Under the pieces are notes generated by a model. The model saw only the letters and a program-made list of their open reading frames with translations, did not search any database and had not been told where the DNA came from. A stretch of DNA of 64,000 bases from Rhodothermia bacterium (lineage in GTDB: Bacteria > Bacteroidota > Rhodothermia > Rhodothermales > UBA2364), in the NCBI GenBank assembly GCA_017303715.1, contig JAFLBZ010000015.1, positions 1 through 64,000 of the forward strand. The letters are read 5' to 3'. Position numbers and translations under genes: made by a program. Positions within the stretch are counted from its first letter, which is position 1. The number at the start of each line of letters is the position of its first letter. This document shows positions 41,196-64,000 of this stretch, in pieces.

Positions 41196-41206
41196 TCTCA
41201 AATTCT

Positions 41207-44220: not shown

Positions 44221-44233
44221 GTTTTTTAGTGAT

Positions 44234-44650: not shown

Positions 44651-45004
44651 TTACATCTCGTTGATTTCGTCGGCAATTTGGTCCATCGGCTTGTTGTTTT
44701 CGGGTTGCGCAATGGCCTCCAATTCTTGTTGGACGATGCGTAAGATGCGTGCGCTGTATCGGGCGTGCCAAAGCTGACGGGCTTCGGCGGCTTCTTCGTC
44801 GGGCGAGTAGGCTTCGATTTCTTCACGAGAGACCAAGCCTTTTTCGGCCAAAATCCGTTCGAGCGTATCGAGGCGTTCACGTGCCACAGCCAATTCCATT
44901 CCCACAGCCATCGTAATATTTAACACACGTTCAACGGCGGGATCGTCAAAAAAGTAAGGGCGTGCCCCTTTCGACTTGTTATTTGCCACTAAAATATCGT
45001 TCAT
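44651..45004 (-). CDS. Small helical protein of unknown function
   Basis: This 117-residue acidic protein is helix-rich: PYFFDDPAVERVLNITMAVGM, then AVARERLDTLERILAEKGLVS, then ARQLWHARYSARILRIVQQE, with no signal peptide or known motif. I do not recognise it. It sits 18 bp after the methyltransferase gene and 3 bp before the SnoaL-like gene, so it is clearly part of the operon. Confidence 0.7.
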   Translation of the reverse strand: MNDILVANNKSKGARPYFFDDPAVERVLNITMAVGMELAVARERLDTLERILAEKGLVSREEIEAYSPDEEAAEARQLWHARYSARILRIVQQELEAIAQPENNKPMDQIADEINEM

Positions 45005-47837: not shown

Positions 47838-47839
47838 AC

Positions 47840-49927
47840 TTATTCGTGCATTTGGATGATGATATTTTTGAAGGCATCTACCCAAGCGGTACTCTTTTTG
47901 CCCACAACCGTTGTGCTTTCAAACTCTTCGATAATACAAGGGCCTTCAAAACGCTGCTCTATGGGGATTTGGTAGCGATCATATACAGGCGTTTCTTCGT
48001 AGCGTTCTCCCCAAAACACCTTGCGATACCCTTTCAAGAGTACCGATGACGCAGCAATTACTTTTTGCTCTGGCTGAACGGTTGGCTTTGGTGCGCTCAC
48101 CAAAACGCGCCATGTAACCGTTTCGATGGGAATATGATCGAGGCTACGTCCATAACGGAGCTGATATTCGGCTTGGAAATTTTGCTCAATCAATGGAATG
48201 GAAGCGTCATTCAAGGTGGCAAAAGGAAGCGAAACGGCAATTTCATGCCCTTGCCCTGAATATCGCATCTCTAAGGTCAGCTTGGTTTCTGCAAGTTCGG
48301 TTGGAACGCCCGCCGCGGCCAAGAAGGCTAAGCCTTTCTGCTGCATCGTCACCAGCATCCGATTGGCTTTATCCCAATCCAATCTCGATAAACGCGCCAC
48401 ATAACTGCTGATTTCTTCGGTCGCGATTGGGCTAACCAAAAACCCCAAAGCACTCAACACGCCTGCACCTGACGGTACAAACAAGGCGGGTGCATTCATC
48501 AAACGAGCGACATGGAACGCATGAACAGGGCCAGCTCCACCAAACGCCATCATCGAAAAATGACGCGGATCTAAACCTTTTTCGAGAATATGAACCCGTG
48601 CCGCATTGGCCATATTTTCGTTCACAATCCGATGGATCCCCCATGCCGCTTCTTCAATGGAAATGCCCAGTGGCTCTGCAATTTTCTCCCGAATAGCGGC
48701 AATCGCCAAGTCTTTTCGCAAGGTCATCGTGCCACCAAGAAAGTAGTGTTCGTTTAAATAACCCAAGACCAAATCGGCATCGGTAACGGTTGGATTTTTG
48801 CCGCCGCGATTGTAGCAAGCTGGGCCGGGTGTAGAGGCCGCACTTTCCGGCCCTACCCTTAGCAATCCCAACGCATTTACATGAGCGATACTTCCGCCAC
48901 CTGCTCCAATTTCGATGAGGTCAATAACGGGGATACGGACGGGCAAGCCGCTCCCTTTTTTGAACCGTTTTTCCCGTGCCGCCTCAAAATGATGGGTAAT
49001 TTCGGGCTGGCCATTGCGGATGATAGAGGCTTTTGCGGTCGTTCCACCCATGTCAAAGGCCACCAAATCGGCATGTTCTTGCTTTACGACTTGGCCTAAT
49101 TGCCCTGAAAAAAATACGGTGGCCATTGCACCACCAGCGGGACCACTCTCTAAAAGTTGAACGGGATTTTTACGCGCCCCTTCTAAGGTGGTAAGCCGTC
49201 CTGCCGAATCCATAATGTGGATCAGCCCCAAAAAACCAAGTGCTTGGAGTTTGCTGTTCAGCGTGCGAAGATACTCTTCGGTAAGGGGCTGCACATATGC
49301 GTTCATCGCCGTTGCGGAAGTACGTTCGTACTCCCGAATTTCGGGCATGGTTTCGCTACTAAGCGAATAGGTGAGTTGCGGAAACTGCTCGCGGATCAGG
49401 CTGCCTACCACCTGCTCATGTATAGGATTGGTGTAGGCATGGAGAAAAGAAACCGCGACACTTTGCACGCCTTGCTTTTGGAGCTTAGACAAGACCGCTA
49501 CAACCTCCTCCTGCCGAATCCCTTCTAGTACTCGCCCATCTTTATCTATGCGCTCCTGAATCCCTTTGCGAAGCGGCTTTGGGATCAAAGGTTGTGGCAT
49601 GGTAATTTGAATGTCATAGATATCGTATCGCATTTCGCGCCCAATTTCTAAAACATCTTCAAACCCTTTGGTTGTGAGCAACGCCGTTTTAGCGCCCTTC
49701 CGCTCAATAACAGCATTGGTTACCAAGGTCGTTCCATGGACGATGGTCTGCACTTCTTCTAAGGCAATGCCTGCATTTTGAACGATTTGTCGCACCCCAT
49801 TCAAAATCCCAACCGAAGGATCGGGATATGTAGTCAGGGTTTTGGCAAAGACCATACGTCCCGTGGTCGCTTCCAGCAAGACCAAATCGGTAAATGTCCC
49901 GCCAATGTCTATTCCAAGTTTCATCAT
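47840..49927 (-). CDS. Hydantoinase A/oxoprolinase family subunit
   Basis: This 695-residue ASKHA-fold ATPase has the N-terminal phosphate motif KLGIDIGGTFTDLVLLE (about 3-19), VHGTTLVTNAVIERKGAKTAL (about 63-83), a second domain with DMGGTTAKASII (about 288) and FGGAGPVHAFHVA (about 446). The start ATG overlaps the SDR stop (TGATG); a second ATG follows at once. With HyuB it makes the two-subunit form of 5-oxoprolinase or N-methylhydantoinase-type enzymes, which couple ATP use to opening of a cyclic amide. The real ring is not known. Confidence 0.92.
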   Translation of the reverse strand: MMKLGIDIGGTFTDLVLLEATTGRMVFAKTLTTYPDPSVGILNGVRQIVQNAGIALEEVQTIVHGTTLVTNAVIERKGAKTALLTTKGFEDVLEIGREMRYDIYDIQITMPQPLIPKPLRKGIQERIDKDGRVLEGIRQEEVVAVLSKLQKQGVQSVAVSFLHAYTNPIHEQVVGSLIREQFPQLTYSLSSETMPEIREYERTSATAMNAYVQPLTEEYLRTLNSKLQALGFLGLIHIMDSAGRLTTLEGARKNPVQLLESGPAGGAMATVFFSGQLGQVVKQEHADLVAFDMGGTTAKASIIRNGQPEITHHFEAAREKRFKKGSGLPVRIPVIDLIEIGAGGGSIAHVNALGLLRVGPESAASTPGPACYNRGGKNPTVTDADLVLGYLNEHYFLGGTMTLRKDLAIAAIREKIAEPLGISIEEAAWGIHRIVNENMANAARVHILEKGLDPRHFSMMAFGGAGPVHAFHVARLMNAPALFVPSGAGVLSALGFLVSPIATEEISSYVARLSRLDWDKANRMLVTMQQKGLAFLAAAGVPTELAETKLTLEMRYSGQGHEIAVSLPFATLNDASIPLIEQNFQAEYQLRYGRSLDHIPIETVTWRVLVSAPKPTVQPEQKVIAASSVLLKGYRKVFWGERYEETPVYDRYQIPIEQRFEGPCIIEEFESTTVVGKKSTAWVDAFKNIIIQMHE

Positions 49928-50760
49928 CAATGATATTCTTCCCCGCCGCTCACATTCATGGCCTCGCCGGTAATGTAAGCGGCTTGTTCAGAGGCTAAAA
50001 AGGCGACAGCCTTGGCAATATCTTCCACCCATCCGGTTCTGCCCAACGGGTTTCGGTCACGAATCCCTTGCAGATAGGTTTCGTAATCCAATCCCAACTT
50101 TTCGCTAAAAAACTGATTTTGCCAGTGCCCTAAGCCAGTGGTAATATGATTGGGGCAAACCGCATTGACCCTAATTTTGTGCTTTCCCAACTCCACCGCA
50201 TTCGAGCGGGTTAATCCCACCAATCCATGCTTGGAAGCAGTATAGGCCGCCGCAAACGGAAAGCCAGATTTGGCGGCTTGGCTGGCAATATTGATGATGC
50301 TTCCGCCGCTTTCTTGTTGCATCATTTGCTTTGCGGCGTGTTTGCTACACAAAAAGGCTCCTTTCAGATTGACCTCTAAGACCGCATCCCAACTACTTTC
50401 TTTGAATTCGGTAAAGGGTTCCATGAGGTAGCCCACGCCTGCATTATTGACCAAAATATCCACGCGCCCAAACGCCGCTACCGTCTTTGCCACCATCTCC
50501 GAGACAGAGGCTTCGCTCCGGACATCGCAGGACAGGGCAAGGGCTTGCACCCCTAATTGCCGAGCAGCTTCTGCAATGGCTTCCATTTCGATCGTTGCGC
50601 CAATATGTTCGGCAGCAAACTCGACGCCTTTGGGTGCGCCAAGATCACTCACGACTACATGGCATCCTTCGGCAGCGAGGCGTAAGACGATTGCTTCACC
50701 AATGCCTTTGGCGCGACCGCTTCCGGTTACAATGGCGGTTTTTCCTTGTAATTGATACAT
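49927..50760 (-). CDS. Short-chain dehydrogenase/reductase
   Basis: This 277-residue protein is a classical SDR with the nucleotide-binding motif TGSGRAKGIGEA (about 11-22), NNAGVGYL (about 104-111), the catalytic Ser in IINIASQAAKSG and the pair YTASKHG (Y at about 173), and a C-terminal VSGGEEY. It oxidises or reduces an alcohol or ketone with NAD(P)(H). It is translationally coupled to HyuA. The substrate is unknown but is presumably a pathway intermediate. Confidence 0.92.
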   Translation of the reverse strand: MYQLQGKTAIVTGSGRAKGIGEAIVLRLAAEGCHVVVSDLGAPKGVEFAAEHIGATIEMEAIAEAARQLGVQALALSCDVRSEASVSEMVAKTVAAFGRVDILVNNAGVGYLMEPFTEFKESSWDAVLEVNLKGAFLCSKHAAKQMMQQESGGSIINIASQAAKSGFPFAAAYTASKHGLVGLTRSNAVELGKHKIRVNAVCPNHITTGLGHWQNQFFSEKLGLDYETYLQGIRDRNPLGRTGWVEDIAKAVAFLASEQAAYITGEAMNVSGGEEYH

Positions 50761-50775
50761 TTTTTCCTCCGATGC

Positions 50776-51096
50776 TTATCCCGCAAAGGCATCTGCCATT
50801 ATAAAAACGGGGTTTTCGGCAAAGGCTTGGAATTGCCCCGCCACCCGCTGCATCGTTTCGGTGCCCAATTCTCCAAAGAGGCCGTCTAAATCGGCTACTT
50901 CGATCACTTCAACATAACGATAAGGTGCAGGAGCTTCACTGCCCAACACGCCCGACGTGCGAAAGACTTTGAACGATTCGACAGCGTTTAAACGCACCAC
51001 TGTTGGCACATCTATTTCTTGGGCAAACTGTTCGTATTCTGCTTCGGAAACGCCTTCTTTTAGATTGAACAGTACAATCAAGGTGGTTTTTTTCAT
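50776..51096 (-). CDS. HapK/REDY-like small dimeric alpha-beta barrel protein
   Basis: This 106-residue protein has the ferredoxin-like dimeric alpha-beta barrel pattern: TTLIVLFNLKEGVSEAEYEQF, then VESFKVFRTSG, YRYVEVIEVADLDGL and ENPVFIMADAF. It resembles the REDY-like protein HapK encoded in the Hahella prodigiosin cluster, a tripyrrole pathway, but the HapK reaction is unknown. Many members of this fold bind or oxidise aromatic rings. It is packed between the HpcH aldolase (24 bp) and the SDR (15 bp). The family call rests on memory. Confidence 0.65.
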   Translation of the reverse strand: MKKTTLIVLFNLKEGVSEAEYEQFAQEIDVPTVVRLNAVESFKVFRTSGVLGSEAPAPYRYVEVIEVADLDGLFGELGTETMQRVAGQFQAFAENPVFIMADAFAG

Positions 51097-51120: not shown

Positions 51121-51882
51121 TTAGGCGATACGGGCTTGGATAAATGATTTTGCAGCCGTCGAAAGAAGTCCTTGCACGGAGTTTAATAAAATCGTTGCGC
51201 CTTTATCTATAAGACCTTGGGCCTGATCGGCAGTTCCGGCCACCGTTCCAATGATTTTACCCGCACCTTTCACCACTTCAAAGATTTCCGTGATCACCGC
51301 ATTTACTTCCGGATGGGCTGGGCCATCATAAAAGCCCATAGACATTGCCAAATCTCGTGGCCCTATGATAAAGCCATCTACACCCGCCACATTCACCATA
51401 TCGCGGAGGTTTTTAACGGCTTCGAGGTCTTCGATTTGAGGTAAAACCAAGGTTTGTGTATTTGCATACGACACGTATTCGGCTTGTGGCATTTTCATCA
51501 TATAACCTGCTGAACGCACGGGACCTAAGCCCCGTTTGCCCAAAGGTGGATATTTGACGGCAGCCACCACTTTTTCGACATCGGCAACGGTCGAGCAGCC
51601 GGGCATCATAATGCCCATCACGCCCGCGTCCATGTATTGCAAAATGAGCGCCATGTTTAAATCACCCACCCGTGCCAAAGGTGTGCAACCACCGAGTTCG
51701 CACGCACGCACCAAATTGGTTATATCGCTTACACTGATCGCCCCGTGTTCGCCGTCTATCATATAAAAATCCAAACCCGATAAGCCCATGTATTCACAAA
51801 TCGTGGGATCGGTAGTGGGCGAAATCACCCCAAAGCAAGGTTTTCGCGCCAAAAGTCGCGTTTTGAGCACATTTTCTTTCAT
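51121..51882 (-). CDS. HpcH/HpaI-family aldolase
   Basis: This 253-residue TIM-barrel class II aldolase has YMIDGEHGAISVSDI (about 40-54), LARVGDLNMALILQYMDAGVMGIMMPG (about 73-99), the metal-binding Glu in LPQIEDLEAV and the metal Asp in GFIIGPRDLAMSMG. It would cleave a 4-hydroxy-2-oxo acid or a related citramalyl-type compound to pyruvate and an aldehyde or acid. It lies 6 bp after the LeuD-like gene and likely acts after hydration. The exact substrate is inferred. Confidence 0.9.
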   Translation of the reverse strand: MKENVLKTRLLARKPCFGVISPTTDPTICEYMGLSGLDFYMIDGEHGAISVSDITNLVRACELGGCTPLARVGDLNMALILQYMDAGVMGIMMPGCSTVADVEKVVAAVKYPPLGKRGLGPVRSAGYMMKMPQAEYVSYANTQTLVLPQIEDLEAVKNLRDMVNVAGVDGFIIGPRDLAMSMGFYDGPAHPEVNAVITEIFEVVKGAGKIIGTVAGTADQAQGLIDKGATILLNSVQGLLSTAAKSFIQARIA

Positions 51883-51888
51883 CTGCGT

Positions 51889-52425
51889 TTAGTTCAATTC
51901 GTGAATAGAGCCATCAGCAATTTTATTGCGGACAAAGTTCATCAACCCGCCTTCGGCAGCGACTTCGGCAACAAAAGGCGCAACCGGTACAGAGTAAAAG
52001 ACTTCGCCCGTGCGTAGGTTCTGAACCGTACCCTCGTCTGTGTCCCAAACCAACTCATCTCCGGTCTGACAACCTTTCGCAATGTTTTTGGAAGTGATAA
52101 AGGGCAGTCCATAATTGATGGCATTGCGAAATTGCAAGCGCGAAAAGCTATCGGCAAAGACCGCTTGAATACCTGCGCCCATCAACCCCGCTACAACGTG
52201 TTCAATGCTTTTGCCGCCGCCTGCAAAGTTGTGTGCGGCGACGATAAAGGTATAACCACCTTCGATAAATCCGTTTTCGCGGTTAAATTCAGGGGCAACG
52301 CCCGCCATCACCCATTTTGCATTTTCGGCTTTGTCAATCGGGGCAGTCCAAAAACGTTGAACGATAATGTCATACGCCATCACATAATCGGAGGCGACCC
52401 AACACTTTCCAGAAATTTTAGCCAT
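51889..52425 (-). CDS. Divergent LeuD/aconitase swivel-domain protein
   Basis: The 178-residue form from ATG 52425 is used; the frame further up overlaps the LeuC-like gene. It has the swivel-domain core (FADSFSRLQFRNAINYGLPFIT) that places it in the LeuD/dehydratase small-subunit class, and it follows a LeuC-like gene by 19 bp. However the canonical substrate loop NxGCGSSRExA is replaced by NFAGGGKSIEHV, and the early DxIDTDxIIP segment by ASDYVMAYDIIVQ. The catalytic Ser-Ser-Arg set is therefore not conserved. The protein probably acts on an unusual substrate, or has another role with its LeuC partner. Confidence 0.8.
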   Translation of the reverse strand: MAKISGKCWVASDYVMAYDIIVQRFWTAPIDKAENAKWVMAGVAPEFNRENGFIEGGYTFIVAAHNFAGGGKSIEHVVAGLMGAGIQAVFADSFSRLQFRNAINYGLPFITSKNIAKGCQTGDELVWDTDEGTVQNLRTGEVFYSVPVAPFVAEVAAEGGLMNFVRNKIADGSIHELN

Positions 52426-52444
52426 ATTCGTAGGATTCAAAAGG

Positions 52445-53710
52445 TTAATAGGAGCCGGTTTCGCGTGGATCAGTAATTTCTCCCCGAATGGCAGAGGCTG
52501 CAACAACCGCCGGACTGGTCAAATAAATCTGGGCATTTTTGCTGCCCATACGCCCTTTCATATTCCGGTTTCCCGCACTCAACACGATGTCGCCATCACC
52601 CGCGACGCCCGTATGAATACCAGCACAAGCCGCACAACTTGGCGTATCAACGGCTGCGCCGGCCTCGACCAAGGTTTGTAGATAACCGCGTTTCATGGCT
52701 TCGAGGTAAACCGTTTGGCTTGCCGGAACAACAATCATATTTACATCCCGATGGATTTGTTTGCCTTTCAAAATCTCGGCCATGACCGCAAAATCTTCTA
52801 CTCGTCCGTTGGTGCAAGTCCCTACAAAGGCTTTGTTGAACTTCCGTCCCACCACTTTTTCGACCGGAACGGTGTCGTCTAATTTGTCTGGTAAGGCAAC
52901 CGTTGGCCCAACATTGGTAACATCTACCTCATAAATTGCATCGTATTGGGCATCGGGATCGCTGGCGATCATCTCCCAATCGCCTTTTGCGACTTCTTTT
53001 AAATAGGCTTCGGTGGTTTGATCGGGCGCAATAATGCCATTTTTTGCCCCTAAATCCACCGTCATATTACACAAGGTCATGCGCCCGGCCATGTCTAAGG
53101 CTTCGATAGCTTCGCCTGTAAACTCAAGTGTTTTATAAATCAAATGCCCATTCCAGTGCATCATGCCCATAATGTGCAGGCTCAAATCTTTGGCCATAAC
53201 ATAAGGTTGCCATTGCCCTTTAATGACAAACTTAACCGACTCTGGGACGCGGAGCCAGCACTTGCCCGTAGCCATTGCCACAGCAGCATCGGTTACGCCT
53301 ATCGCATTGCCCAACGCCCCAACCGCGCCGTAGGTATTCGCATGGGAATCCGTCCCAATAGACACTTTTCCGGGTAAAACATGGCCTTGCTCCACCATGA
53401 TCTGATGGGCGATTCCCTGCCGACCCAGATCATAGAAGTAGGTGATATCATGCGCCTTTACGATGTCTCGCCAACGGTTCAGCAAGGTCGCAAAATGCTC
53501 AGTGGGCGGCGGAACCAAATGATCGCTTACACAAATCACCCGATCTTTGTCGAAGACCTCGTTTAAGCCCAACGAACGAAATTGTTTAAAGCATTGCTCG
53601 CCAAGGTAGTCCATCGTCATGATGCTATGTACATCCACCCACACCAATTGGCCGGGAACGACTTTATCCCGCCCACTATTGCGGGCCATTATTTTTTCGG
53701 TAATTGTCAT
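52445..53710 (-). CDS. LeuC/aconitase-type hydratase large subunit, copy 1
   Basis: This 421-residue protein has the [4Fe-4S] cysteines in place (GTCTNGRVEDF near 300, PSCAACAGIHTG near 361-364), with IGTDSHANTYGAVGALGNAIGVTDAAVAMATGK (about 118-150) and SAGNRNMKGRMG near the end. It would hydrate or dehydrate a maleate-like acid, as in isopropylmalate isomerase, dimethylmaleate hydratase (DmdA) or citraconate hydratase. No leuA or leuB is near, so leucine synthesis is unlikely. It is 87 bp downstream of the DUF3598 gene. Confidence 0.88.
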   Translation of the reverse strand: MTITEKIMARNSGRDKVVPGQLVWVDVHSIMTMDYLGEQCFKQFRSLGLNEVFDKDRVICVSDHLVPPPTEHFATLLNRWRDIVKAHDITYFYDLGRQGIAHQIMVEQGHVLPGKVSIGTDSHANTYGAVGALGNAIGVTDAAVAMATGKCWLRVPESVKFVIKGQWQPYVMAKDLSLHIMGMMHWNGHLIYKTLEFTGEAIEALDMAGRMTLCNMTVDLGAKNGIIAPDQTTEAYLKEVAKGDWEMIASDPDAQYDAIYEVDVTNVGPTVALPDKLDDTVPVEKVVGRKFNKAFVGTCTNGRVEDFAVMAEILKGKQIHRDVNMIVVPASQTVYLEAMKRGYLQTLVEAGAAVDTPSCAACAGIHTGVAGDGDIVLSAGNRNMKGRMGSKNAQIYLTSPAVVAASAIRGEITDPRETGSY

Positions 53711-53797: not shown

Positions 53798-54307
53798 TTA
53801 ATGGTCGCTACGAGAAGGGCCATTGGTACGTAGGCTCGGCAAATCAACCCAAAACTGTGGGTCAATCTCTTCTTGCGTTGCCACACGCCGCTCTTCGATC
53901 ATCGTGATGCCTTGGAACGTATCGTTTTCCGTCCATCGCCAATTCCGCACACGGTGTGTTCCATCTCCGATGAGATCAATCATTTCATACAGTTTGGATC
54001 CCGGACGGTTTAGATACGTCCAAATAAGACAAACACTGTCTTTGGTTTCCCAAGAATAACCGTTGATGCGTGGACTATCAAAGAGGAGTACGCCCTCCTC
54101 ATTAAAATGGCAAATGCCAAAGTCGTGGCACTCTTGGTGCCCATCCGCCCAAAAGTATTGATTCACCTGATGATAAGCTCCGTCTTCGGTTATCTTAATG
54201 GTGAGGCGGCTTTTCCATTCATCCGTTTTTTCGCCTTGTGCATTGATGCGGATGTAGGAGCCTTCCCAGATGCCCGTATGCTGTGGAAAAAGTCTTAACG
54301 CTGTCAT
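53798..54307 (-). CDS. DUF3598-like lipocalin-type protein
   Basis: This 169-residue soluble protein has the pattern TGIWEGSYIRINAQGEKTDEW, then a conserved region with NQYFWADGHQECHDFGICHF, INGYSWETKDSVCLIWTYLN and VRNWRWTENDTFQGITMIEERR. It matches my memory of the DUF3598 family, a lipocalin-like fold that includes or resembles CpcS/CpcT-type bilin lyases in cyanobacteria, though other members occur in non-photosynthetic bacteria. It is the first gene of the minus operon. No catalytic role can be read, and a binding role is likely. Confidence 0.6.
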   Translation of the reverse strand: MTALRLFPQHTGIWEGSYIRINAQGEKTDEWKSRLTIKITEDGAYHQVNQYFWADGHQECHDFGICHFNEEGVLLFDSPRINGYSWETKDSVCLIWTYLNRPGSKLYEMIDLIGDGTHRVRNWRWTENDTFQGITMIEERRVATQEEIDPQFWVDLPSLRTNGPSRSDH

Positions 54308-54574: not shown

Positions 54575-55852
54575 ATGCAAATTTCCAAGCTAAAAGAGTT
54601 TCGCTATGGCTGGCCTGTGGTTTTCTCTTCTGCCATTGGGATAGGTTTGGGGATGTCCCCCTTACCCATCTACACCCTCGGCGTTTTTGCAGTCCCGCTT
54701 GCCCAAACCTTTGGATGGCGAATGGACCAAATCATGCTCGCAATGCCCGTTTTTACGCTGGGTGCATTGGTCATGAGTCCTATTATTGGGCTTACGGCAG
54801 ATAAGGCGGGTGTTCGGAAGACGATCATGGTTTCGCAAATCGCCTTTGGGCTTACGTTTATGGCCTTTGCGCTAACAGGTGGTAGCCTTTTGTTGTACTT
54901 CTTGCTGTGGGGATTGCTATCGGTGACGGGTGCGGGGACGCTACCCATGACTTGGACTCGTGCGGTGAACAACTGGTTTCAGAAAAACCGCGGCTTGGCC
55001 TTGGGCTTGGCTTTGGTTGGAACGGGCATCTTGGGGAGCCTCACGAAACTTTGGGCGGGCTTTCTCGTGGGCCAATTTGGATGGCAAATGGCCTATGTTG
55101 GCGTAGGTCTGTTGCCCATTGTGGTGGCCCTCCCTATTACTTGGCTTTTTTTCAGAGACACAACGGATCCTAAAGTGGCCCATAAAGTGGCCGAACTGAA
55201 GCACGAGAAGCGCTCAACTCCAGCCCAGCCTTCACCCTCTGAGGCATTGGGCGATTTGGGCGGCTTGTCCCTCGGCGAGGCGGTTAAGGAATGGCGTTTT
55301 TGGCTCTTGGGGCTTTGTTTTATACTCATCTCGTTTGCCGTAGGTGGCCAGATTCCCAACTTAGAAAAACTATTAAGTACCAAAGGTTTTGATACGACCA
55401 CGGCAATTATGTTGGCCAGCTATTTAGGCTATGCAGTGGTGGTTGGCCGACTGGTGGGAGGCTACTTATTGGATCGGTTTTGGGCGCCTGCTGTAGCTGC
55501 CATCATGCTCAGTTTACCCGCCTTGGGGTGCTATTTGTTCATGCAAGCCACCATGAGCTATGGCATGGCTACGCTTGGCGTAATCATCTTGGGCTTGGCT
55601 GCTGGCGTTGAATACGACTTTATGGCGTACCTCGTTACCAAGTATTTTGGCATGAAGAATTATTCAGCCATTTACGGTGCTTTGTACAGTTTCTTTGCAC
55701 TTGGCGCTGGTTTTGGGCCTTATTTCTTTGGCCTCTCTTTCACCCAAAACGGTGATTACAATACGATACTCGGATACTCGGCACTAGCCTTCCTTATTGG
55801 TGCGCTGCCCTTGGTATTTCTTGGCAAGTACCGCACCTTCTCGGCAGCATAA
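54575..55852 (+). CDS. MFS transporter, oxalate/formate-antiporter-like
   Basis: This 425-residue protein has about 12 transmembrane helices. The family-specific loop between helices 2 and 3 is SPIIGLTADKAGVRKTIM (about 67-84). A charged central loop (about 205-235, KHEKRSTPAQPSPSEALG) separates the two six-helix halves. It resembles the OFA-type subfamily that exports or exchanges small carboxylates. It is the first gene of the plus operon, opposite the promoter of the minus operon. The expected cargo is a carboxylic acid from the pathway or the substrate itself. Confidence 0.85.
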   Translation: MQISKLKEFRYGWPVVFSSAIGIGLGMSPLPIYTLGVFAVPLAQTFGWRMDQIMLAMPVFTLGALVMSPIIGLTADKAGVRKTIMVSQIAFGLTFMAFALTGGSLLLYFLLWGLLSVTGAGTLPMTWTRAVNNWFQKNRGLALGLALVGTGILGSLTKLWAGFLVGQFGWQMAYVGVGLLPIVVALPITWLFFRDTTDPKVAHKVAELKHEKRSTPAQPSPSEALGDLGGLSLGEAVKEWRFWLLGLCFILISFAVGGQIPNLEKLLSTKGFDTTTAIMLASYLGYAVVVGRLVGGYLLDRFWAPAVAAIMLSLPALGCYLFMQATMSYGMATLGVIILGLAAGVEYDFMAYLVTKYFGMKNYSAIYGALYSFFALGAGFGPYFFGLSFTQNGDYNTILGYSALAFLIGALPLVFLGKYRTFSAA

Positions 55853-55930: not shown

Positions 55931-58627
55931 ATGAATCTTAAACTTTTCGGAAAAGTCTTGCTTCTGCGGACGACTTTACTCATGCTTGTATGCCTCCTTT
56001 TCGGTACACAAGCATATGCGCAACACCGCGTACAAGGGCGGGTCAGCACTAAAAACGGCGAACCCATCGTGGGTGCGGTGGTCAAGGAAAAGGGTCTTAA
56101 CAATGGCGTTACGACGGATAAGAACGGAAGTTACCAAATCCAAACCAGATCGGGCAATGGCACTTTGGTCTTTAGCTTTGTGGGGCTGCGAACCATCGAA
56201 GAGGCCATCTCTGGTCGTAACACAATTAATGCGACCATGGAGGACGACGTCACCAACCTATCCGACGTTGTTGTCACGGCAAGCCTTTCTGAAATCCGAA
56301 AATTAGAAACGCCCGCTTCTGTGGAAGCAGTGGACATTCGCCGCTTGGAGTCCCTTAAGCCGGAAGCATATAACGAAGCCCTCCAGAACCTTCCCGGCGT
56401 TATGGTCAATCAAAACCAAGGACGACGCAACAACATCCGTTTACGTGGCTTTCCGGATGGCACACCTTTGGGTGGGATGGCTTATACCGCTGTACTCTTG
56501 GATGGGATTCCGGCGCTCGGAACACCTGCCAAACTTCCAGAAAATGGCTTTGGTTTTGACACCAATATCGAGCGGGTCGAGTTGGTCAAAGGCTCGGCAG
56601 CCACCTTGTTTGGACGCGGCGCGGCGGCAGGGGTCGTCAATATGATTACCCGTACCGGAGGCGAAAAAATGAGCGGCTCGGTACGCCTTACCAATTACAA
56701 TGACCTCTTGGATAAAGGCGGCTTTAATTACCGCTTGGACTACAACCTCAATGGCCCCATTTCCAAGCAACTTCGCTACAATGTAGGCGGTTGGCTCCTA
56801 AACGACTCAGGGTTTAGAAACACAGGGTATAACGATGAGGGGATGCAAGTCCGAGGTAATTTAGACTATTTATTCGCCGAAAACCGTGGTAGCGTCCGCT
56901 TTTATGCACAATATGCCGACTTTAACTTCCAGAACCTTACGGACGTTGCCGTGAATGCGGAAACCTTAAAACTGGCGGACGGGTGGAAAAATACCGACAC
57001 CTATAACTTCCCCTTTGCAAGTGAGGTCAATTACCGCATCCGCGTCCGCAATGCCGCCAACCCCGCTACCCAAGTTTCCTTATTGGATGAAAGCGGTAAA
57101 GAAATTACCCGCAACTTTGACGAGGCACTTGCGGGAGGATCCTATGCTCAAGGCTACCATGCTGGTACACGCCTACGCTTGACGGTGGGCGCTGGTATCA
57201 ACATCGAAAACCACTTGCGGGTACAAAAAATGGGAACGGGCGTCCGGTATGCCTTTGCGCTCCCCAGTTTCTACAATACAAACTTGGTTTCTCGCTTGCT
57301 GTTGGATGGGGATAGTGATGACGACGAGTTGATCAACGACTTCAAAATCAACAAGACCCTCGAAGGCCGTAACTCTCGCCACAAAGTATCGGGCGGATTT
57401 TATTATTCCACGATCAATCTTTTACCCACTACTTATAGCCTTGTTTACGGCAGTAATACCAACCCAAGTGACCTCAAACTCCTCAGTTTTATCACCGGCT
57501 TGCCCATTGCGAAAGATGCTACGGGCAAATATCCCGTTCAAAATGGCGGCATTACCCGTCGTGGTGATTATACCGAAGCTGTAACGGCATTCTCTCTTGG
57601 CGACGAAATGAAGATCGGGGACAACTTAAATGTATTGATGGGTTTCCGTTATGACAGGCTAGAGATAGACATGTCCGAAACCAAATTCCCCGCAGACCAA
57701 GCCCTTACCCGCCAAGAGAAATTCAGAGATTGGTCGGCAACGGTGGCCGCAAACTACCAACTTTCTACAACCTCCGCGCTGTATGGTAACCTGAACCGTA
57801 CCTTCCGTATGCCCGACTACTCGGCCTTTACGTCTTTGGAATGGACCAGTGCCACCAATAAAACACTGTTGCGCGTACCGAATGGTATCGAAAAGAACGA
57901 AATTATCTACAACACCGAATTGGGTTACCGCAATGCCTTTGGTGATCTGAGCTTGGATGCCGCCTTTTTCTATACCCAGATCAACAACCGCTTAGCGGCG
58001 ATTTTTGAGAATGGCATTTTGCAATCCAAGCCGCTGGGGAGCAACCGCATCATGGGGGGCGAAATCAGCTTAAACTACCGCCCACAATCCCTTCGTGGTT
58101 TGAACTTGGGAACCTCACTCACCTACCAAGATGCCATTTTTACGGACTTTAAAATCTCGACGACCGCAGACCCTACAAAAGACCTTTTCGGCAATACACT
58201 TATCAAAGAGTCGGCAACGGTCTTTACACTCGATCTACAGAACAAGTCTTTACCGGGTGTACCAAGCCTCATGGCCAATGTTTTAGCAGAATACAACCAC
58301 AAGTATTTTGGTGTTGATGTGGGCTACAACCTCATTGGCAAAAGCTATCAGGATGCGACCAATATCCTCGAACTTCCTGCACTCACCAACATCAATGCGG
58401 GCGTTCATGCCAAAATTCCAGTAGGCAAAACCATCATCCGTATTGGCACACAAGCCAAAAACCTCACCAACGAACAAGCCTTGGTCAACATCGCGGGCGT
58501 TTCGGATAACGACACGATTTTGCGCCGCAAACAAGGCAGCACCGCTTCTGGCGTAACGGGCACACTCGCGCATGGCTACGTACAATTACCACGCCGCGTT
58601 TTATTCTACGCCACATATACGTTCTAA
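55931..58627 (+). CDS. TonB-dependent outer-membrane receptor
   Basis: This 898-residue protein has a signal peptide (about 1-31, ending AYAQ), then a carboxypeptidase-regulatory-like domain (VQGRVSTKNGEPIVGAVVKE, about 34-53; DKNGSYQI), a plug domain (NLSDVVVTASLSEIR, LQNLPGVMVNQNQG, NIRLRGFPDG, ERVELVKGSAATLFGRGAAAG) and a 22-strand-type barrel ending ...RRVLFYATYTF. No SusD-like partner follows, so it is a single receptor rather than a classical polysaccharide SusCD pair. It is expected to import a larger ligand, plausibly the substrate of the catabolic island. Confidence 0.92.
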   Translation: MNLKLFGKVLLLRTTLLMLVCLLFGTQAYAQHRVQGRVSTKNGEPIVGAVVKEKGLNNGVTTDKNGSYQIQTRSGNGTLVFSFVGLRTIEEAISGRNTINATMEDDVTNLSDVVVTASLSEIRKLETPASVEAVDIRRLESLKPEAYNEALQNLPGVMVNQNQGRRNNIRLRGFPDGTPLGGMAYTAVLLDGIPALGTPAKLPENGFGFDTNIERVELVKGSAATLFGRGAAAGVVNMITRTGGEKMSGSVRLTNYNDLLDKGGFNYRLDYNLNGPISKQLRYNVGGWLLNDSGFRNTGYNDEGMQVRGNLDYLFAENRGSVRFYAQYADFNFQNLTDVAVNAETLKLADGWKNTDTYNFPFASEVNYRIRVRNAANPATQVSLLDESGKEITRNFDEALAGGSYAQGYHAGTRLRLTVGAGINIENHLRVQKMGTGVRYAFALPSFYNTNLVSRLLLDGDSDDDELINDFKINKTLEGRNSRHKVSGGFYYSTINLLPTTYSLVYGSNTNPSDLKLLSFITGLPIAKDATGKYPVQNGGITRRGDYTEAVTAFSLGDEMKIGDNLNVLMGFRYDRLEIDMSETKFPADQALTRQEKFRDWSATVAANYQLSTTSALYGNLNRTFRMPDYSAFTSLEWTSATNKTLLRVPNGIEKNEIIYNTELGYRNAFGDLSLDAAFFYTQINNRLAAIFENGILQSKPLGSNRIMGGEISLNYRPQSLRGLNLGTSLTYQDAIFTDFKISTTADPTKDLFGNTLIKESATVFTLDLQNKSLPGVPSLMANVLAEYNHKYFGVDVGYNLIGKSYQDATNILELPALTNINAGVHAKIPVGKTIIRIGTQAKNLTNEQALVNIAGVSDNDTILRRKQGSTASGVTGTLAHGYVQLPRRVLFYATYTF

Positions 58628-58713: not shown

Positions 58714-59616
58714 ATGAAAACCTTCAAAGGCATACGGTACTGGCTACACCTTGGCTTATTCGCTGCTATTTCGTTGCTTTCGGCCTGTAGCAGCGCTCCC
58801 AAAATGGCAACAACAACGCATAAACCGCTTGATCTGTCTAAGCCCGAAGACAATATGACCGCCTTTCTGAAAATGCGTATTTCTACCGTCGAAAATGAAG
58901 AGGTTTATTTTTTTGCTTCGGGTAAAATTTATTCTTTTGTTCCGGGCGAACGCGACCGCCCCTTGTTTGATTTTGAAATGTATAATGTAGGCAAGATTCA
59001 AAAGATAGAAGGCGGTTACCAAATGCTTACTCGCGAAGTGGGTTTTTATAAAGATTTAAAAACGGGGCAATATCTCGCTTCTTGGGAAAATCCTTGGACG
59101 AATAAGACCGAAAACGTAATTCATGTTTGGAATGATCCTGTCAATCAGAAGTTTCAATTGGAAGGGCGTGGCGGAAAATGGGGCATTCCTTATACCGAAA
59201 TGGGCGACCGCGTCGTGATGAATACCGATATTTTCTTGAACTATCCCTCTCCGATAACCGTTGCGGAATATCCAGAAAACGCCGCTGCCGACACCTATGA
59301 AGCTGCCGAGCTATTTCAATTTTTTGCGCGAAAAGCAGACTTAGACAATCCCGCCATTACCAATGCCTTTACCGAAGTTTCGTGGACGCGCATCGGGCCT
59401 TGGCTCCCTTGGATGGGCATGGGGCAAAGGCAGGGCGGCTTGGTGTATCAGACCAGAGGCTACAAAGTAAAATCTTGGGAAGAACTACCCAAGCAAATGC
59501 AGGATTTTGTGATGAACAACTATCCCGAATTTAAACACGCCCCCGATACCGCAGTAGGCAGCAACGAAACCAGTTGGACGTATTTCAAAAAACGCAAAAC
59601 AGCCCAAAAAAACTAA
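58714..59616 (+). CDS. DUF1838-family lipoprotein
   Basis: The ATG at 58714 begins a lipoprotein signal (LLSACSS, Cys at about 28). The 300-residue protein has the DUF1838 pattern: EDNMTAFLKMRISTVENEEV, ASGKIYSFVPGERDRPLFDF, MLTREVGFYKDLKTGQYLASWENPW, VSWTRIGPWLPWMGMGQRQGG, and the C-terminal MQDFVMNNYPEFKHAP. DUF1838 proteins are exported with unknown role and often lie near TonB receptors. The lipid anchor would place it in the outer membrane or periplasm, next to the receptor. Function unknown. Confidence 0.75.
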   Translation: MKTFKGIRYWLHLGLFAAISLLSACSSAPKMATTTHKPLDLSKPEDNMTAFLKMRISTVENEEVYFFASGKIYSFVPGERDRPLFDFEMYNVGKIQKIEGGYQMLTREVGFYKDLKTGQYLASWENPWTNKTENVIHVWNDPVNQKFQLEGRGGKWGIPYTEMGDRVVMNTDIFLNYPSPITVAEYPENAAADTYEAAELFQFFARKADLDNPAITNAFTEVSWTRIGPWLPWMGMGQRQGGLVYQTRGYKVKSWEELPKQMQDFVMNNYPEFKHAPDTAVGSNETSWTYFKKRKTAQKN

Positions 59617-59618
59617 GC

Positions 59619-60524
59619 GTGGCAACAAAGATTATTCTGGAAGAACAAGGCTTACGGGATGGTTTACAGACGATTCCCACCATCGTGCCTACCGAAGTGA
59701 AACTTGCTTGGCTGGATCGTTTGGTGAAAGCAGGCGTACAGCGTATCCAAGTGGCCTCCTTTGTTCATCCACGCATTGTACCACAAATGGCAGATGCCGC
59801 CGCGCTCTTTGCCCATCTGCGCGACCGTTCCGACGTGGTTTTGAGCGCCTTAGTTCTTAACCAAAAAGGCGTGGAACGTGCCACCGAAGTAGGTGTTCGC
59901 CATTTAGCCATCTCCCTTTCTGCGAGTGAAACGCACAGCCTGAAAAATACCCGCATGAATTTGGAAACGGCGAAAACGGACTTCCGCGCCAATGTACGGT
60001 TTGCCCGTCAACACCAAATCACCGTTCGGGCAGGTATTCAGTGCGCCTTTGGATGTCGTTACGAAGGGCGCATCGCCACGCAACAGGTTCTCGACTTGGT
60101 TAAGCACCATTTGGATACTGGAGCAGATGAACTTGCACTGGCGGATAGTACGGGCATGGCAAACCCACGCCAACTCAGGGAGATGATGCAAAGCGTGCTT
60201 GAACTCGTCGGTGTTGTACCAGTTTCGCTGCACTTACACAATACCGAGAACAAAGGCTTGGCGAATGTATATGCCGGAATCGAGGCGGGTGTTCGCCAGT
60301 TTGATACGGCTTTTGGTGGCTTAGGCGGATGTCCTTTCATCCAAAACGCTACGGGTAATATCGCCACAGAGGATACTGTCCACTTACTCCATCAAATGGG
60401 CTATGAAACAGGGATTGACCTCCCAAAAATCGCAACCCTTGGTCAAGAAATTGCGCAATTTTTAGGGACGCCACTACCAGGCGCTTTGTATAAACTCCTG
60501 CAAGAACCAATTCAGGTTTGCTAA
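59619..60524 (+). CDS. HMG-CoA-lyase-like enzyme
   Basis: Start is GTG 59619, two bases after the DUF1838 stop; the frame to 59574 would only overlap the upstream gene. The 301-residue protein is a DRE-TIM metallolyase: EEQGLRDGLQT (about 7-17), RIQVASFVHP (about 44), AGIQCAFGCRYEG (about 141), SLHLHNTENKGLANVYAG (about 202-219) and the mobile-loop Cys in GGLGGCPF (about 238). Normal HMG-CoA lyases cleave HMG-CoA to acetyl-CoA and acetoacetate. In this operon it may cleave a related 3-hydroxy-3-methyl acyl-CoA. No CoA ligase is seen here. Confidence 0.88.
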   Translation: MATKIILEEQGLRDGLQTIPTIVPTEVKLAWLDRLVKAGVQRIQVASFVHPRIVPQMADAAALFAHLRDRSDVVLSALVLNQKGVERATEVGVRHLAISLSASETHSLKNTRMNLETAKTDFRANVRFARQHQITVRAGIQCAFGCRYEGRIATQQVLDLVKHHLDTGADELALADSTGMANPRQLREMMQSVLELVGVVPVSLHLHNTENKGLANVYAGIEAGVRQFDTAFGGLGGCPFIQNATGNIATEDTVHLLHQMGYETGIDLPKIATLGQEIAQFLGTPLPGALYKLLQEPIQVC

Positions 60525-60539
60525 CCAACCCAATGAGCT

Positions 60540-61757
60540 ATGCTGACAACAGCCGAAAAAATACTAAGCCAAAAAGCGGGAAAAACCGTTCGCGCCGGCG
60601 AATTGGTGGTGGTTCCAGTGGATGGCGTGATGGCAACCGATACCACCGCGCCGAGTGCCTTAAAAGCCTTTGAAAAAATGGGTGGGAGCAAAGTGTGGTA
60701 TCCCGACCGCTGCGCTTTGGTGATAGACCACGCCGCCCCTGCTCCGAATGAACGCATCGCCAATTTGCACCAATTCATGCGCGACTTTGCCCAAGCACAA
60801 GACATTCGCTTGTTTGAGATTGGTGAAGGCATTTGCCACCAAGTTATGGTAGAACAGCGGTATGTGCGTCCGGGTCATCTCTTCATTGGTGCAGATAGCC
60901 ACACCCCAACGTATGGCGCACTCAACGCATTTGCCTGCGGCGTAGGTTCAACAGATTTGGCGGCGGTCATGCTGACCGGCAAAATCTGGCTCAAAGTGCC
61001 GCAAACCATTCGGGTACAATGTCATGGCAAACTGCCAGAGAACGTGAGTGCCAAAGATTTAGTTTTATACCTGACGGGTAAAATTGGCATTTCGGGCGCA
61101 ACCTACCAAGCCATCGAATTTGAGGGTTCTGCATTTGAGGAGATGAGCCTTGCTTCTCGTATGGCGGTTGCCAACATGATGGCCGAAATGGGGGCAAAAA
61201 CAGGTTTTATTCACCCAAAAGGTTTAAGTTTGCCATATCATTTTGAGGCAGTTTATCCCGATGAAGGTGCAAATTATGCCGCCACTTACACATTTGACGT
61301 TTCCAACCTAAAACCACAAATTGCCGCACCTGAATCGCCCGATAATGTAGGCGATCTCGCAGCACATTTGGGAAAACCAATCCAATACGGCTTTATTGGT
61401 ACTTGTGGGAATGGTCGCTTAGAGGATTTACACGCCGCTGCCGCTGTTTTATCGGGGAAGCGCATTGCCAATGGCGTGCGTTTGGTTATCGCACCCGCTT
61501 CGCGCGCTGTTTTGTTGGAAGCCATTCAAGATGGAACGGCCCACACCTTGATTGCCGCAGGCGCAACGTTTATCACGCCCGGCTGCGGCCCTTGTGTCGG
61601 TAGCCATGAAGGTGTTCCGGCGGATGGCGAAACGGTGATCTCCAGCGCGAACCGCAATTTCAAAGGACGCATGGGCAATCCTCGTGCCCAAATTTACTTG
61701 GCTGCTCCGGCAACTGTCGCCGCTTCAGTCTTACACGGATACATTGCAAACCCTTGA
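60540..61757 (+). CDS. LeuC/aconitase-type hydratase large subunit, copy 2
   Basis: This 405-residue protein has the [4Fe-4S] cysteines GTCGNGRLEDLHAA (about 288) and TPGCGPCVGSHEG (about 347-350), with IGADSHTPTYGALNAFACGVGSTDLAAVMLTGK (about 117-149) and SSANRNFKGRMGNPRAQIYLAAP near the end. It belongs to the same class as copy 1 but is distinct. Its small subunit is encoded after the second MFS gene (62981-63478), with normal catalytic residues, so the pair should be active. The substrate is unknown. Confidence 0.9.
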   Translation: MLTTAEKILSQKAGKTVRAGELVVVPVDGVMATDTTAPSALKAFEKMGGSKVWYPDRCALVIDHAAPAPNERIANLHQFMRDFAQAQDIRLFEIGEGICHQVMVEQRYVRPGHLFIGADSHTPTYGALNAFACGVGSTDLAAVMLTGKIWLKVPQTIRVQCHGKLPENVSAKDLVLYLTGKIGISGATYQAIEFEGSAFEEMSLASRMAVANMMAEMGAKTGFIHPKGLSLPYHFEAVYPDEGANYAATYTFDVSNLKPQIAAPESPDNVGDLAAHLGKPIQYGFIGTCGNGRLEDLHAAAAVLSGKRIANGVRLVIAPASRAVLLEAIQDGTAHTLIAAGATFITPGCGPCVGSHEGVPADGETVISSANRNFKGRMGNPRAQIYLAAPATVAASVLHGYIANP

Positions 61758-61761
61758 AACA

Positions 61762-62994
61762 ATGGAGCTTAGCCCCAAACCCATCCGCCAAAGTGCTGTG
61801 GTTTTAGCCATTGTCGCATCCGCACTTGGCTTTTTTGTGGACTTATACGACATCATTATTGTAAGTGTCGTGCGCCGCGCAAGCCTTTTGTCGGTTGGTG
61901 TACCCGAAACGGAGTTATTGGAGAAAGGCGTCCTTCTGCTCAATGTACAGATGGCCGGAATGTTATTGGGCGGTTTTCTTTGGGGCATCTTGGGCGATAA
62001 ACGCGGGCGGCTTTCCGTACTTTTCGGTTCCATCCTCTTGTACTCGGCGGCGACCTTGGCCAATGCTTTTGCACCAAACTTTGAATGCTTCTTGGCCTTA
62101 CGCTTTTTGGCCGGAATTGGCTTGGCCGGTGAATTGGGGGCCGGAATCACCTTGGTGGCGGAGCAAATGCCGCCGGAAAAACGGGGATTAGGCCCTGCCA
62201 TCATTGGATCGTGTGGGATGCTGGGCGCAATCTTCGGGGCTTATATCGGTGGGCATTATTCATGGCAATTCACCTATCAGCTGGGCGGAATCATGGGCTT
62301 TGCCTTGCTCATTTTGCGACTCGGCGTTTTAGAAAGCGGGCTTTACGAAGGCTTAAAAGAAAAAACCACCACAAGGGGCAATTTGTCCATCCTTTTCAAA
62401 AATCCTTACCACCTCAAACGCTATACGGCGGTGATTTTAATGGGCTTTCCGGGCTGGTTTGTCAATGGAATAGTGATGACCTTCACACCCGAAATCGCCA
62501 AAAGCATGGGTATGACCGAGCTTCCGAGCGTTGCCACCGTATTTAGTGTGTTTTTCATCGGGTTTACATTTGGCGACTTTTCTTGTGGCTTGGTCAGTCA
62601 ATGGCTCAAGAGCCGTAAAAAAGCCATATTGCTTTACCTCTCCACGTTTACCGTTTTAATGGTTGTGTACTTCATTTTCGGCTCGCGTTCCGTCACCATC
62701 TACTACAGCATCTTTCTCTTGATGGGCATTAGCGTGGGCTACACCATCGTTTTGCTTACAAATGCGGCTGAAATGTTTGGAACAAATATCCGTTCTACCG
62801 TAACCACGTCCTCGCTAAACTTGTTACGGGCTTCGGTTATTCCGCAATCGCTGTTGTTTTCGGTATTAGTCCCTTCCTTGGGAGCGGTTACTGCCGCCTT
62901 GATTACCGGCATCGGCGCTTTAGCCGTTGCGTTTTATGGTTACACCCAATTAGAAGAGACCTTCCATAAACCATTGGATTATGTTGATGAATAA
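61762..62994 (+). CDS. MFS transporter, metabolite:H+ symporter-like
   Basis: The ATG at 61762, four bases after the LeuC stop, is preferred to the longer frame from 61684. The 410-residue protein has about 12 transmembrane helices, with the family loop WGILGDKRGRLSVLF (helix 2-3) and RFLAGIGLAGELGAGITLVAEQMPPEKRG (helix 4-5) typical of sugar or aromatic-acid symporters. It lies between LeuC and LeuD copy 2. It probably imports or exports an acid intermediate. Confidence 0.88.
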   Translation: MELSPKPIRQSAVVLAIVASALGFFVDLYDIIIVSVVRRASLLSVGVPETELLEKGVLLLNVQMAGMLLGGFLWGILGDKRGRLSVLFGSILLYSAATLANAFAPNFECFLALRFLAGIGLAGELGAGITLVAEQMPPEKRGLGPAIIGSCGMLGAIFGAYIGGHYSWQFTYQLGGIMGFALLILRLGVLESGLYEGLKEKTTTRGNLSILFKNPYHLKRYTAVILMGFPGWFVNGIVMTFTPEIAKSMGMTELPSVATVFSVFFIGFTFGDFSCGLVSQWLKSRKKAILLYLSTFTVLMVVYFIFGSRSVTIYYSIFLLMGISVGYTIVLLTNAAEMFGTNIRSTVTTSSLNLLRASVIPQSLLFSVLVPSLGAVTAALITGIGALAVAFYGYTQLEETFHKPLDYVDE

Positions 62995-63478
62995 CCTTTC
63001 GGGATCTGCCCATGTCTATGGCGATCATATTGACACCGACCGCATTATTCCGGGCAAATACACCAAAACCTTAGACGTGCAGTCCTTAGCCGACCATGTT
63101 CTGGAGGACTTAGACCCCAGTTTTCGCGAAAAACTACAAGTTGGCGATGTCTTGGTCGCAGGAGAAAATTTTGGTTGCGGCTCTTCGCGAGAACAAGCCC
63201 CCGTTGCCCTCCAAACGGCTGGCGTCTCCTTCATTATTGCTCGCTACTTTGCCCGCATTTTTTTTCGCAATGCCATCAATATCGGCTTGCCTGTTATGGA
63301 AATTCCCGATCACGACATTGCAACTGGAGACCGTTTAGAAGCTGATTTAAAACAAGGGCTTGTGCGAAACATCACAACCGGCAAAACCTACCAAGCAACA
63401 CCACTCCCCGAAGTGATGTTCAATATTTTATCGGAAGGCGGCTTAGTGCAGTATCTCCAAAAACACGGCTCCTATTAA
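62981..63478 (+). CDS. LeuD/aconitase-type hydratase small subunit, copy 2
   Basis: This 165-residue protein has the canonical swivel motifs GDHIDTDRIIPGKYTKTLD (about 14-32), GENFGCGSSREQAPVALQ (about 61-78) and YFARIFFRNAINIGLPVME (about 88-106). The start overlaps the MFS stop by 14 bp (or 8 bp from the second ATG). It should pair with the LeuC copy 2. The intact GCGSSRE loop contrasts with copy 1. It is separated from its large subunit by a transporter gene, an uncommon order. Confidence 0.92.
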   Translation: MLMNNLSGSAHVYGDHIDTDRIIPGKYTKTLDVQSLADHVLEDLDPSFREKLQVGDVLVAGENFGCGSSREQAPVALQTAGVSFIIARYFARIFFRNAINIGLPVMEIPDHDIATGDRLEADLKQGLVRNITTGKTYQATPLPEVMFNILSEGGLVQYLQKHGSY

Positions 63479-63490
63479 ACCCCATAAAAC

Positions 63491-64000
63491 ATGAAAAAAA
63501 AACTCTTAGGCTTGACATTTTTGCTTTTTGCAGGCCCTATTCAAGCCCAAAACCTAAACGCCGATTGGCAACTGCTTAACACCTTGTTTACGGGCGAGTT
63601 CAACAATTTCCAGCAGGTTTGGCAGGAAAAAGAAGATGGCATTGTAGATTCTTTGGTACACGAACACATCCATTCCATTTTTAAGCCTGTCTCCATTCCT
63701 GCGCTTGGGGAAAACGTCTTTTTTGTAAAGCAATATATGAATGGCGATCCAAGTAAAATCTATCGGATGCGGGTGTACCAATTTGTGCCAGACCCTGCCG
63801 AAAAAGCCATCCGTTTAGACATTTATTCCTTCAAAGACCCCACAGATGAGGCACGGTTCAAACTCGCCGACGAAGACCCGAACATGCTCACCCAACTTTC
63901 CCCAGTTCATTTTAGCACTGTTCCTGGGTGTAGCGTCTATTGGCAAAAACAATCCGATGACGAGTTTATTGGTACAATGAAACCCCGTGCCTGTAATTTT
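63491..64000 (+). CDS. Exported CpcT/CpeT-like (bilin-lyase family) protein, partial
   Basis: Reading from ATG 63491 there are 170 codons, open to the right edge. A signal peptide (MKKKLLGLTFLLFAGPIQAQ) shows export. The mature part follows the CpcT/CpeT (DUF1001) pattern: LLNTLFTGEFNNFQQVW, VFFVKQYMNGDPSKIYRMRVYQF, IDLDIYSF-like strand LDIYSFKDPTDEARF, and the C-terminal VPGCSVYWQK ... FIGTMKPRACNF. In cyanobacteria CpcT attaches bilin chromophores to phycobiliproteins. Here the host is not a cyanobacterium, so a bilin-binding role is inferred only from the fold. The gene continues beyond the window. Confidence 0.75.
   Translation, partial: MKKKLLGLTFLLFAGPIQAQNLNADWQLLNTLFTGEFNNFQQVWQEKEDGIVDSLVHEHIHSIFKPVSIPALGENVFFVKQYMNGDPSKIYRMRVYQFVPDPAEKAIRLDIYSFKDPTDEARFKLADEDPNMLTQLSPVHFSTVPGCSVYWQKQSDDEFIGTMKPRACNF

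Follow-up and report, generated by a model that had tools for sequence, protein, structure and literature searches.

An exported two-domain CpeT protein and its conserved gene cluster suggest that some non-photosynthetic bacteria import bilin pigments and feed on them

The window, by which we mean the whole stretch of 64,000 nucleotides that was analysed (bases 1-64000 of a contig of 92.9 kb, from a genome of 4.35 Mb), ends within a gene of the CpcT/CpeT family. Its last 510 bases (63491-64000, plus strand) are the 5' part of this gene, which is open to the window end. The complete gene continues on the plus strand to position 64474 of the contig and encodes 327 amino acids. The operon that contains it has these genes within the window:

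54575-55852, plus: MFS transporter, first gene of the operon (Pfam search)
55931-58627, plus: TonB-dependent outer-membrane receptor with a CarboxypepD_reg-like domain (Pfam search)
58714-59616, plus: DUF1838 lipoprotein, predicted calycin-like barrel (PF08894, 1.5e-75; co-occurrence)
59619-60524, plus: HMG-CoA-lyase-like protein, candidate citramalyl-CoA-type lyase (PF00682; NF004283, 292.9 bits, cut-off 246; GTG start chosen)
60540-61757, plus: large subunit of an aconitase/isopropylmalate/homoaconitate-family hydratase (PF00330; NF001614, 524 bits, and TIGR01343, 514 bits, both above cut-off)
61763-62994, plus: MFS transporter (PF07690, 1.1e-31; ATG start inside a longer ORF, 61684-62994)
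62981-63478, plus: LeuD/DmdB-type small subunit of an aconitase-family hydratase (PF00694; TIGR02087, 198.9 bits, cut-off 108.95)
63491-64000 (contig end 64474), plus: long-form exported CpeT, with signal peptide (residues 1-20), CpeT barrel (30-218), and a second all-beta domain (about 222-327)

On the opposite strand is a second operon:

53798-54307, minus: DUF3598_N protein, first gene of the operon (PF12204, 2.3e-8)
52445-53710, minus: second LeuC/HacA-type large subunit (profile searches)
51889-52506, minus: second LeuD-type small subunit (weak against curated models)
51121-51882, minus: HpcH/HpaI-type aldolase/lyase (PF03328)
50776-51096, minus: HapK (REDY)-like small protein (PF11639, 6.2e-11)
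49927-50760, minus: short-chain dehydrogenase (profile search)
47840-49930, minus: HydA/oxoprolinase subunit (caprolactamase alpha is the nearest curated model, with a score below its cut-off)
46254-47885, minus: HydB/oxoprolinase subunit (profile search)
45023-46219, minus: SAM methyltransferase, conserved in the cluster (profile search and neighbourhood comparison)
44651-45004, minus: 117-aa protein without a Pfam match, conserved in the cluster (neighbourhood comparison)
44234-44647, minus: SnoaL-like protein, conserved in the cluster (neighbourhood comparison)
43552-44298, minus: isochorismatase-fold amidohydrolase (among solved structures, its relatives are N-carbamoylsarcosine amidohydrolases and the maleamate amidases 4l07/4l08 and 3ot4/3uao)
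42650-43555, minus: PuuE-like polysaccharide-deacetylase-fold amidohydrolase, candidate cyclic imidase (profile search; PMC9304392)
41732-42646, minus: second PuuE-like amidohydrolase (profile search)
41207-41680, minus: MarR regulator, conserved in the cluster (profile search)
40179-41231, minus: carbon-nitrogen hydrolase (nitrilase/amidase), conserved in the cluster (profile search)

A preliminary description of the window placed the CpeT gene at the end of its operon, but four more genes follow on the same strand: a family III CoA-transferase, an exported VOC-like protein (so labelled from its appearance and from one sub-threshold Pfam match in the L048 homologue), a divergent CpeT relative, and an aldehyde dehydrogenase. 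The same description put the gene in an uptake setting with a TonB receptor and an exported DUF1838 lipoprotein, and Pfam searches confirmed both. It was also right that a DUF3598 protein opens the opposite operon. It suggested that this protein may share a lipocalin-like fold with CpeT; a relationship in sequence found no support in profile comparison, where hhalign against the CpeT alignment gave a probability of 0.6 over 15 columns. What was missed earlier, namely the second domain of CpeT, the remaining operon, and a conserved catabolic pathway, is most of what is of interest here.

The assignment to the CpeT family is confirmed. The part of the ORF within the window matches Pfam PF06206 (CpeT) at 8.9e-23 and 81.5 bits (cut-off 21), and the full-length protein matches it over residues 30-218 at 8.3e-31 and 107.7 bits (same cut-off), which places it in the family. 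We looked for a better family and none emerged. The nearest solved sequence is the phycocyanobilin lyase CpcT (4e-6 with the single sequence and 1.8e-14 with a profile). This is the only CpeT in the genome that exceeds the PF06206 cut-off; the divergent relative three genes downstream (L002:6928-7500) is missed by Pfam and was recognized by profile comparison with CpeT (probability 84.6, E = 7e-6).

Once the rest of the gene was obtained, the CpcT/CpeT fold that had been proposed from the 5' part held up in a predicted structure. An AlphaFold2 model built on 25 homologues has a pLDDT of 92.5, and Foldseek matches it to CpcT at 7e-12. Residues 20-221 of the model superimpose on CpcT (4o4o) with Z = 22.2 and an rmsd of 2.5 Å over 185 aligned residues, and on the complex of CpcT with phycocyanobilin (4o4s) with Z = 22.1 and an rmsd of 2.5 Å over 185 residues. 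Next come the plant protein CRL (6lix, Z = 19.4) and a cyanophage CpeT (5hi8, Z = 16.4), and the first chain from beyond the family has Z = 8.8. As modelled, the protein shares the barrel of CpcT, with which it is 23% identical across the barrel; the fold by itself says nothing about a ligand. Despite the common family and barrel, CpcT is a cytoplasmic, single-domain protein that serves phycobiliproteins, whereas the long CpeT is exported, has two domains, and is encoded by a genome without phycobiliproteins. It differs from a T-type phycobiliprotein lyase in two ways: its cell has no phycobiliprotein to serve as substrate and, judging from a signal peptide identified by eye in the protein and in its homologues, its location is not cytoplasmic. 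The phage CpeT and CRL have the same fold (and the phage protein also shares the GEFDN motif), but neither has the second domain, and their cellular settings differ.

This second region (about residues 222-327) is predicted to be all beta, with eight strands, and it is conserved across the long form, with H253, G256, Y271, E274, K288, W304, G313, and N315 invariant. In fold searches with the full model, no match covered it. The invariant residues of the two domains together (H57, H61, W151, H253, Y271, E274, K288, W304, and N315) exceed what a plain binder would need, and CpcT itself is a lyase, so the long CpeT might be an enzyme rather than a carrier: a bilin isomerase, a hydratase, or a protein that reverses the lyase reaction and so releases bilins attached to phycobiliprotein peptides. 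Pairs of SusC/SusD type that adjoin CpeT at some loci, as read from the sequence, would suit the import of chromopeptides. On the other hand, detachment by such an arrangement of domains has no known catalytic precedent, and we consider an enzymatic role quite unlikely.

The preliminary description also held that the protein is exported and implied that this would be unusual for a CpeT outside of cyanobacteria. The first claim stands: residues 1-20 look like a signal peptide (MKKKLLGLTFLLFAGPIQAQ), and the long-form homologues likewise begin with what look like export or lipoprotein signals (all signal peptides were judged by eye rather than with a predictor). The second does not. CpeT is present in 22 of 296 genomes that we sampled across the phylum, mostly as a short form of about 204-230 amino acids, and nearly all of the short forms have N-termini that look exported or lipidated (again by eye). 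Because exported short CpeT is common in the phylum, export alone is not new. The short exported proteins of Bacteroidota share the family and the export but not the second domain, and catabolic genes accompany them at 0 of 16 loci. In contrast, the novelty lies in the long form, which mostly occurs within one conserved, apparently undescribed catabolic cluster. The protein belongs to the CpeT family, but its architecture and its conserved context are both new.

We scanned 84,980 species genomes for the long form and found 25 loci. Most are from Bacteroidota (Cytophagales, Chitinophagales, Saprospiraceae, Flavobacteriaceae, and Runella), and the others are from two Kapabacteria, two Acidobacteria, and one gammaproteobacterium. 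Among viral contigs, phages, and plasmids, we found no long-form relative. In a tree, the long form is separate from the short form with support of 84/89; two of the short rows (L024 and L025) are in the wrong frame, and the split does not depend on them. There is also a second, shorter CpeT relative of 250-265 amino acids at L033:11948-12700 (minus strand) and at L034-L036. It keeps both the N-terminal motif and the C-terminal domain but seems to lack a large central part of the CpeT barrel.

The cluster comprises lactam/imide hydrolases, a half-amidase, two LeuCD-type hydratases, a CoA-transferase, an HMG-CoA-lyase-like enzyme, the TonB receptor, and the exported DUF1838 protein. At the level of families, genes of the imidase/lactamase, half-amidase, hydratase, CoA-transferase, and lyase types are found together across the window and the adjoining contig. 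Scored only with protein queries from the window side, at least three of these families are present at 15 of the 24 long-CpeT loci outside the genus, while none is present at any of the 16 short-CpeT loci (p = 4e-5, which overstates the independence of the loci because four of them are from closely related Flavobacteriaceae). The other 9 of the 24 have fewer than three cluster genes near CpeT. The cluster extends to the gammaproteobacterium (L048), where the long CpeT is accompanied by LeuC, the HMG-CoA-lyase-like protein, the CoA-transferase, the VOC-like protein, and the aldehyde dehydrogenase, with about 30-54% identity.

DUF1838 follows the long form closely. It exceeds its cut-off in just 4 of the 296 phylum genomes, and these are exactly the ones with the long CpeT (three are congeners); it is absent from the 292 genomes that lack the long form. 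Across the wider scan, DUF1838 is present in 22 of the 25 genomes with the long form (including on the acidobacterial contig of L046), the exceptions being two Runella and one MAG from Chitinophagales. The two Runella loci have neither the cluster nor DUF1838, and their CpeT is in other surroundings. Near the short form, DUF1838 was found at 0 of 16 loci. Could the long CpeT simply be a general exported homologue that adjoins the cluster by chance? Exported-looking CpeT proteins are, after all, common in the phylum and are mostly away from the cluster. However, the two forms are split in the tree, the cluster is kept with the long form in several phyla, and the co-occurrence with DUF1838 is nearly without exception. 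These results already contradict a chance association, which we view as very improbable.

We also considered whether DUF1838 is a sequence relative of CpeT and rejected this, as profile comparison gave no support. Its predicted model has middling matches to calycin barrels: CpeS (4tq2, Z = 8.5), a DUF3598 protein (2o62, Z = 8.3), and nitrobindins (Z of about 8). This likeness is suggestive only. At six loci (L027, L030, L031, L037, L039, and L040), a large TonB/SusC-like receptor and a SusD-like lipoprotein, as they appear from their sequences, adjoin the long CpeT and replace the window's type of TonB receptor. The catabolic genes are absent nearby at the first four of these.

A link to bilins comes from locus L046 (Vicinamibacterales), where the long CpeT gene and a flavoenzyme gene on the opposite strand are 42 bp apart. 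The flavoenzyme scores 769.7 bits against NCBI's long-form model of bilirubin reductase (NF045599, cut-off 750) and just misses the separate N-terminal model (422.2 vs. 425). It has the HGDR motif that defines BilR, and the D and R of this motif are required for the reduction of bilirubin (PMC10769871). A protein in the other acidobacterial genome, on its own contig, is 78% identical to this enzyme and also has the HGDR motif. The neighbouring flavoenzyme at L047, which is acidobacterial as well, was a candidate that we rejected: it lacks HGDR and falls below the BilR cut-off. Bilirubin reductase adjoins the long CpeT at L046 only, and no protein exceeds its cut-off in the window's genome or in any of the 296 phylum genomes. 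So we rejected BilR as a general component of the cluster and view it as an informative neighbour instead of a constant part. The bilirubin reductase of L046 makes a periplasmic role with bilins, as first suggested for the window's protein, the best reading that the sequences offer.

The bilirubin-reductase-type gene (L046:10936-12864, minus strand) is followed by one for a Tat-exported FAD amine-oxidase-like protein (L046:12866-14314, minus strand), and this Pfam family also has a Tat-type exported member next to the long CpeT in the two Kapabacteria (L039 and L040). The L046 contig also encodes two more proteins of the Old Yellow Enzyme type (L085:3186-5168 and L084:13524-15599); the former is below the bilirubin reductase cut-off and adjoins a VOC-like protein.

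The window's own genome contains no phycobilisome protein (PF00502) across its full length and no heme oxygenase of PF01126. Hence both the substrate of a lyase and the PF01126 route to bilins are absent. The TonB receptor and the exported proteins suggest that any bilin in use would be acquired externally. We lean towards the view that the long CpeT is probably a periplasmic bilin-binding protein, part of a system that would break down linear tetrapyrroles (either bilins or peptides and fragments that bear them) taken from the surroundings. Here we infer the substrate, as well as every reaction step below and any role for the second CpeT domain.

Oxidative cleavage of bilins yields substituted maleimides and lactams, such as hematinic acid and methyl-vinyl- or methyl-ethylmaleimide. 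We propose that the TonB receptor would carry the pigment across the outer membrane. Partnered by the DUF1838 lipoprotein, the long CpeT would hold this pigment in its CpcT-type barrel and hand it to periplasmic enzymes that oxidise or cleave it (perhaps the VOC-like protein, or the Tat-exported FAD oxidase in some relatives). We assigned no enzyme of the cluster to the splitting of the tetrapyrrole. The MFS transporters would then import the resulting one- or two-ring lactams and substituted maleimides, and in the cytoplasm their rings would be opened by HydAB, PuuE-like, or dihydropyrimidinase-like hydrolases. Some PuuE-type proteins are cyclic imidases (PMC9304392), and the dihydropyrimidinase-like proteins are found in L039, L046, and L048. 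That the family of the ring-opening hydrolase differs by lineage is expected if the opening of a cyclic amide or imide is the constant. After this, the isochorismatase-like amidase would release ammonia, the LeuCD-type hydratases (of the homoaconitase branch) would hydrate the substituted methylmaleate, and the CoA-transferase together with an HMG-CoA-lyase-like or HpcH/CitE-like enzyme would split the product into pyruvate and an acyl-CoA. For example, by our own chemical reasoning, hydrolysed hematinic acid would be 3-methyl homoaconitate, which would give pyruvate and glutaryl-CoA. Against the curated models, the hydantoinase and the CoA-transferase scored below cut-off, as did the hydratases in their equivalog matches, and none of the cluster's enzymes has a characterised close relative that acts on a bilin or a maleimide.

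The enzymes indicate the hydrolysis of a cyclic amide or imide and the hydration of a methylmaleate, which does not fix the parent compound. The main rival to the bilin reading is therefore that the cluster degrades some other lactam or imide natural product with methylmaleate-type intermediates (e.g., a prodiginine-like or other pyrrole compound) and that the CpeT barrel was re-used as its periplasmic binder. The cluster does include a HapK/REDY-like protein, from a family named from prodigiosin clusters, and calycin barrels bind many hydrophobic ligands. Nevertheless, a bilirubin reductase adjoins the long CpeT in L046, the fold is by far nearest to the bilin lyases, and the same operon has a second, divergent relative of CpeT. 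We regard a different parent compound as unlikely, though less so than an enzymatic role for CpeT.

Bilins are open-chain relatives of heme, and the turnover of heme, chlorophyll, and phycobilins is vast. In the gut, bacteria use BilR to reduce bilirubin, but in the open-access literature that we searched we found no gene set described for breaking bilins down completely. If bilins are indeed the substrate, then the cluster gives the genes, the order of the steps, and substrates that can be tested (hematinic acid, methyl-ethyl- and methyl-vinylmaleimide, biliverdin, and phycocyanobilin), and it would place DUF1838 in a context and explain the presence of some CpeT homologues in non-photosynthetic bacteria. 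More broadly, we tentatively suggest, as a plausible idea that falls somewhat short of probable, that a widespread undescribed pathway fully mineralises the bilins of dead phototrophs or of heme turnover via maleimides and methylmaleates to pyruvate and acyl-CoA, with exported CpcT-fold proteins and other calycin-like barrels as the handlers.

Parts of the proposed pathway resemble known systems. BilR and BilV (PMC10769871, PMC13252198) are also used by bacteria to handle external bilins, and a BilR-type enzyme is present at one long-CpeT locus. However, BilR and BilV reduce bilirubin to urobilinogen, and the published system does not include CpeT, while the gene set here points to ring opening and full catabolism. 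The cyclic imide step of nicotinate catabolism (HxnM and HxnN; PMC9304392) likewise pairs a PuuE-related imidase with an amidase, and the citramalate CoA-transferase and citramalyl-CoA lyase (PMC8307300) likewise pair a CoA-transferase with a CoA-ester lyase, but the substrates differ in both cases. Unlike either of these systems, the cluster adds LeuCD-type hydratases, TonB uptake, and CpeT. Finally, the 117-aa protein (44651-45004) and the methyltransferase (45023-46219) are superfluous to the proposed pathway, and they accompany the cluster in L032, L042, and L050.
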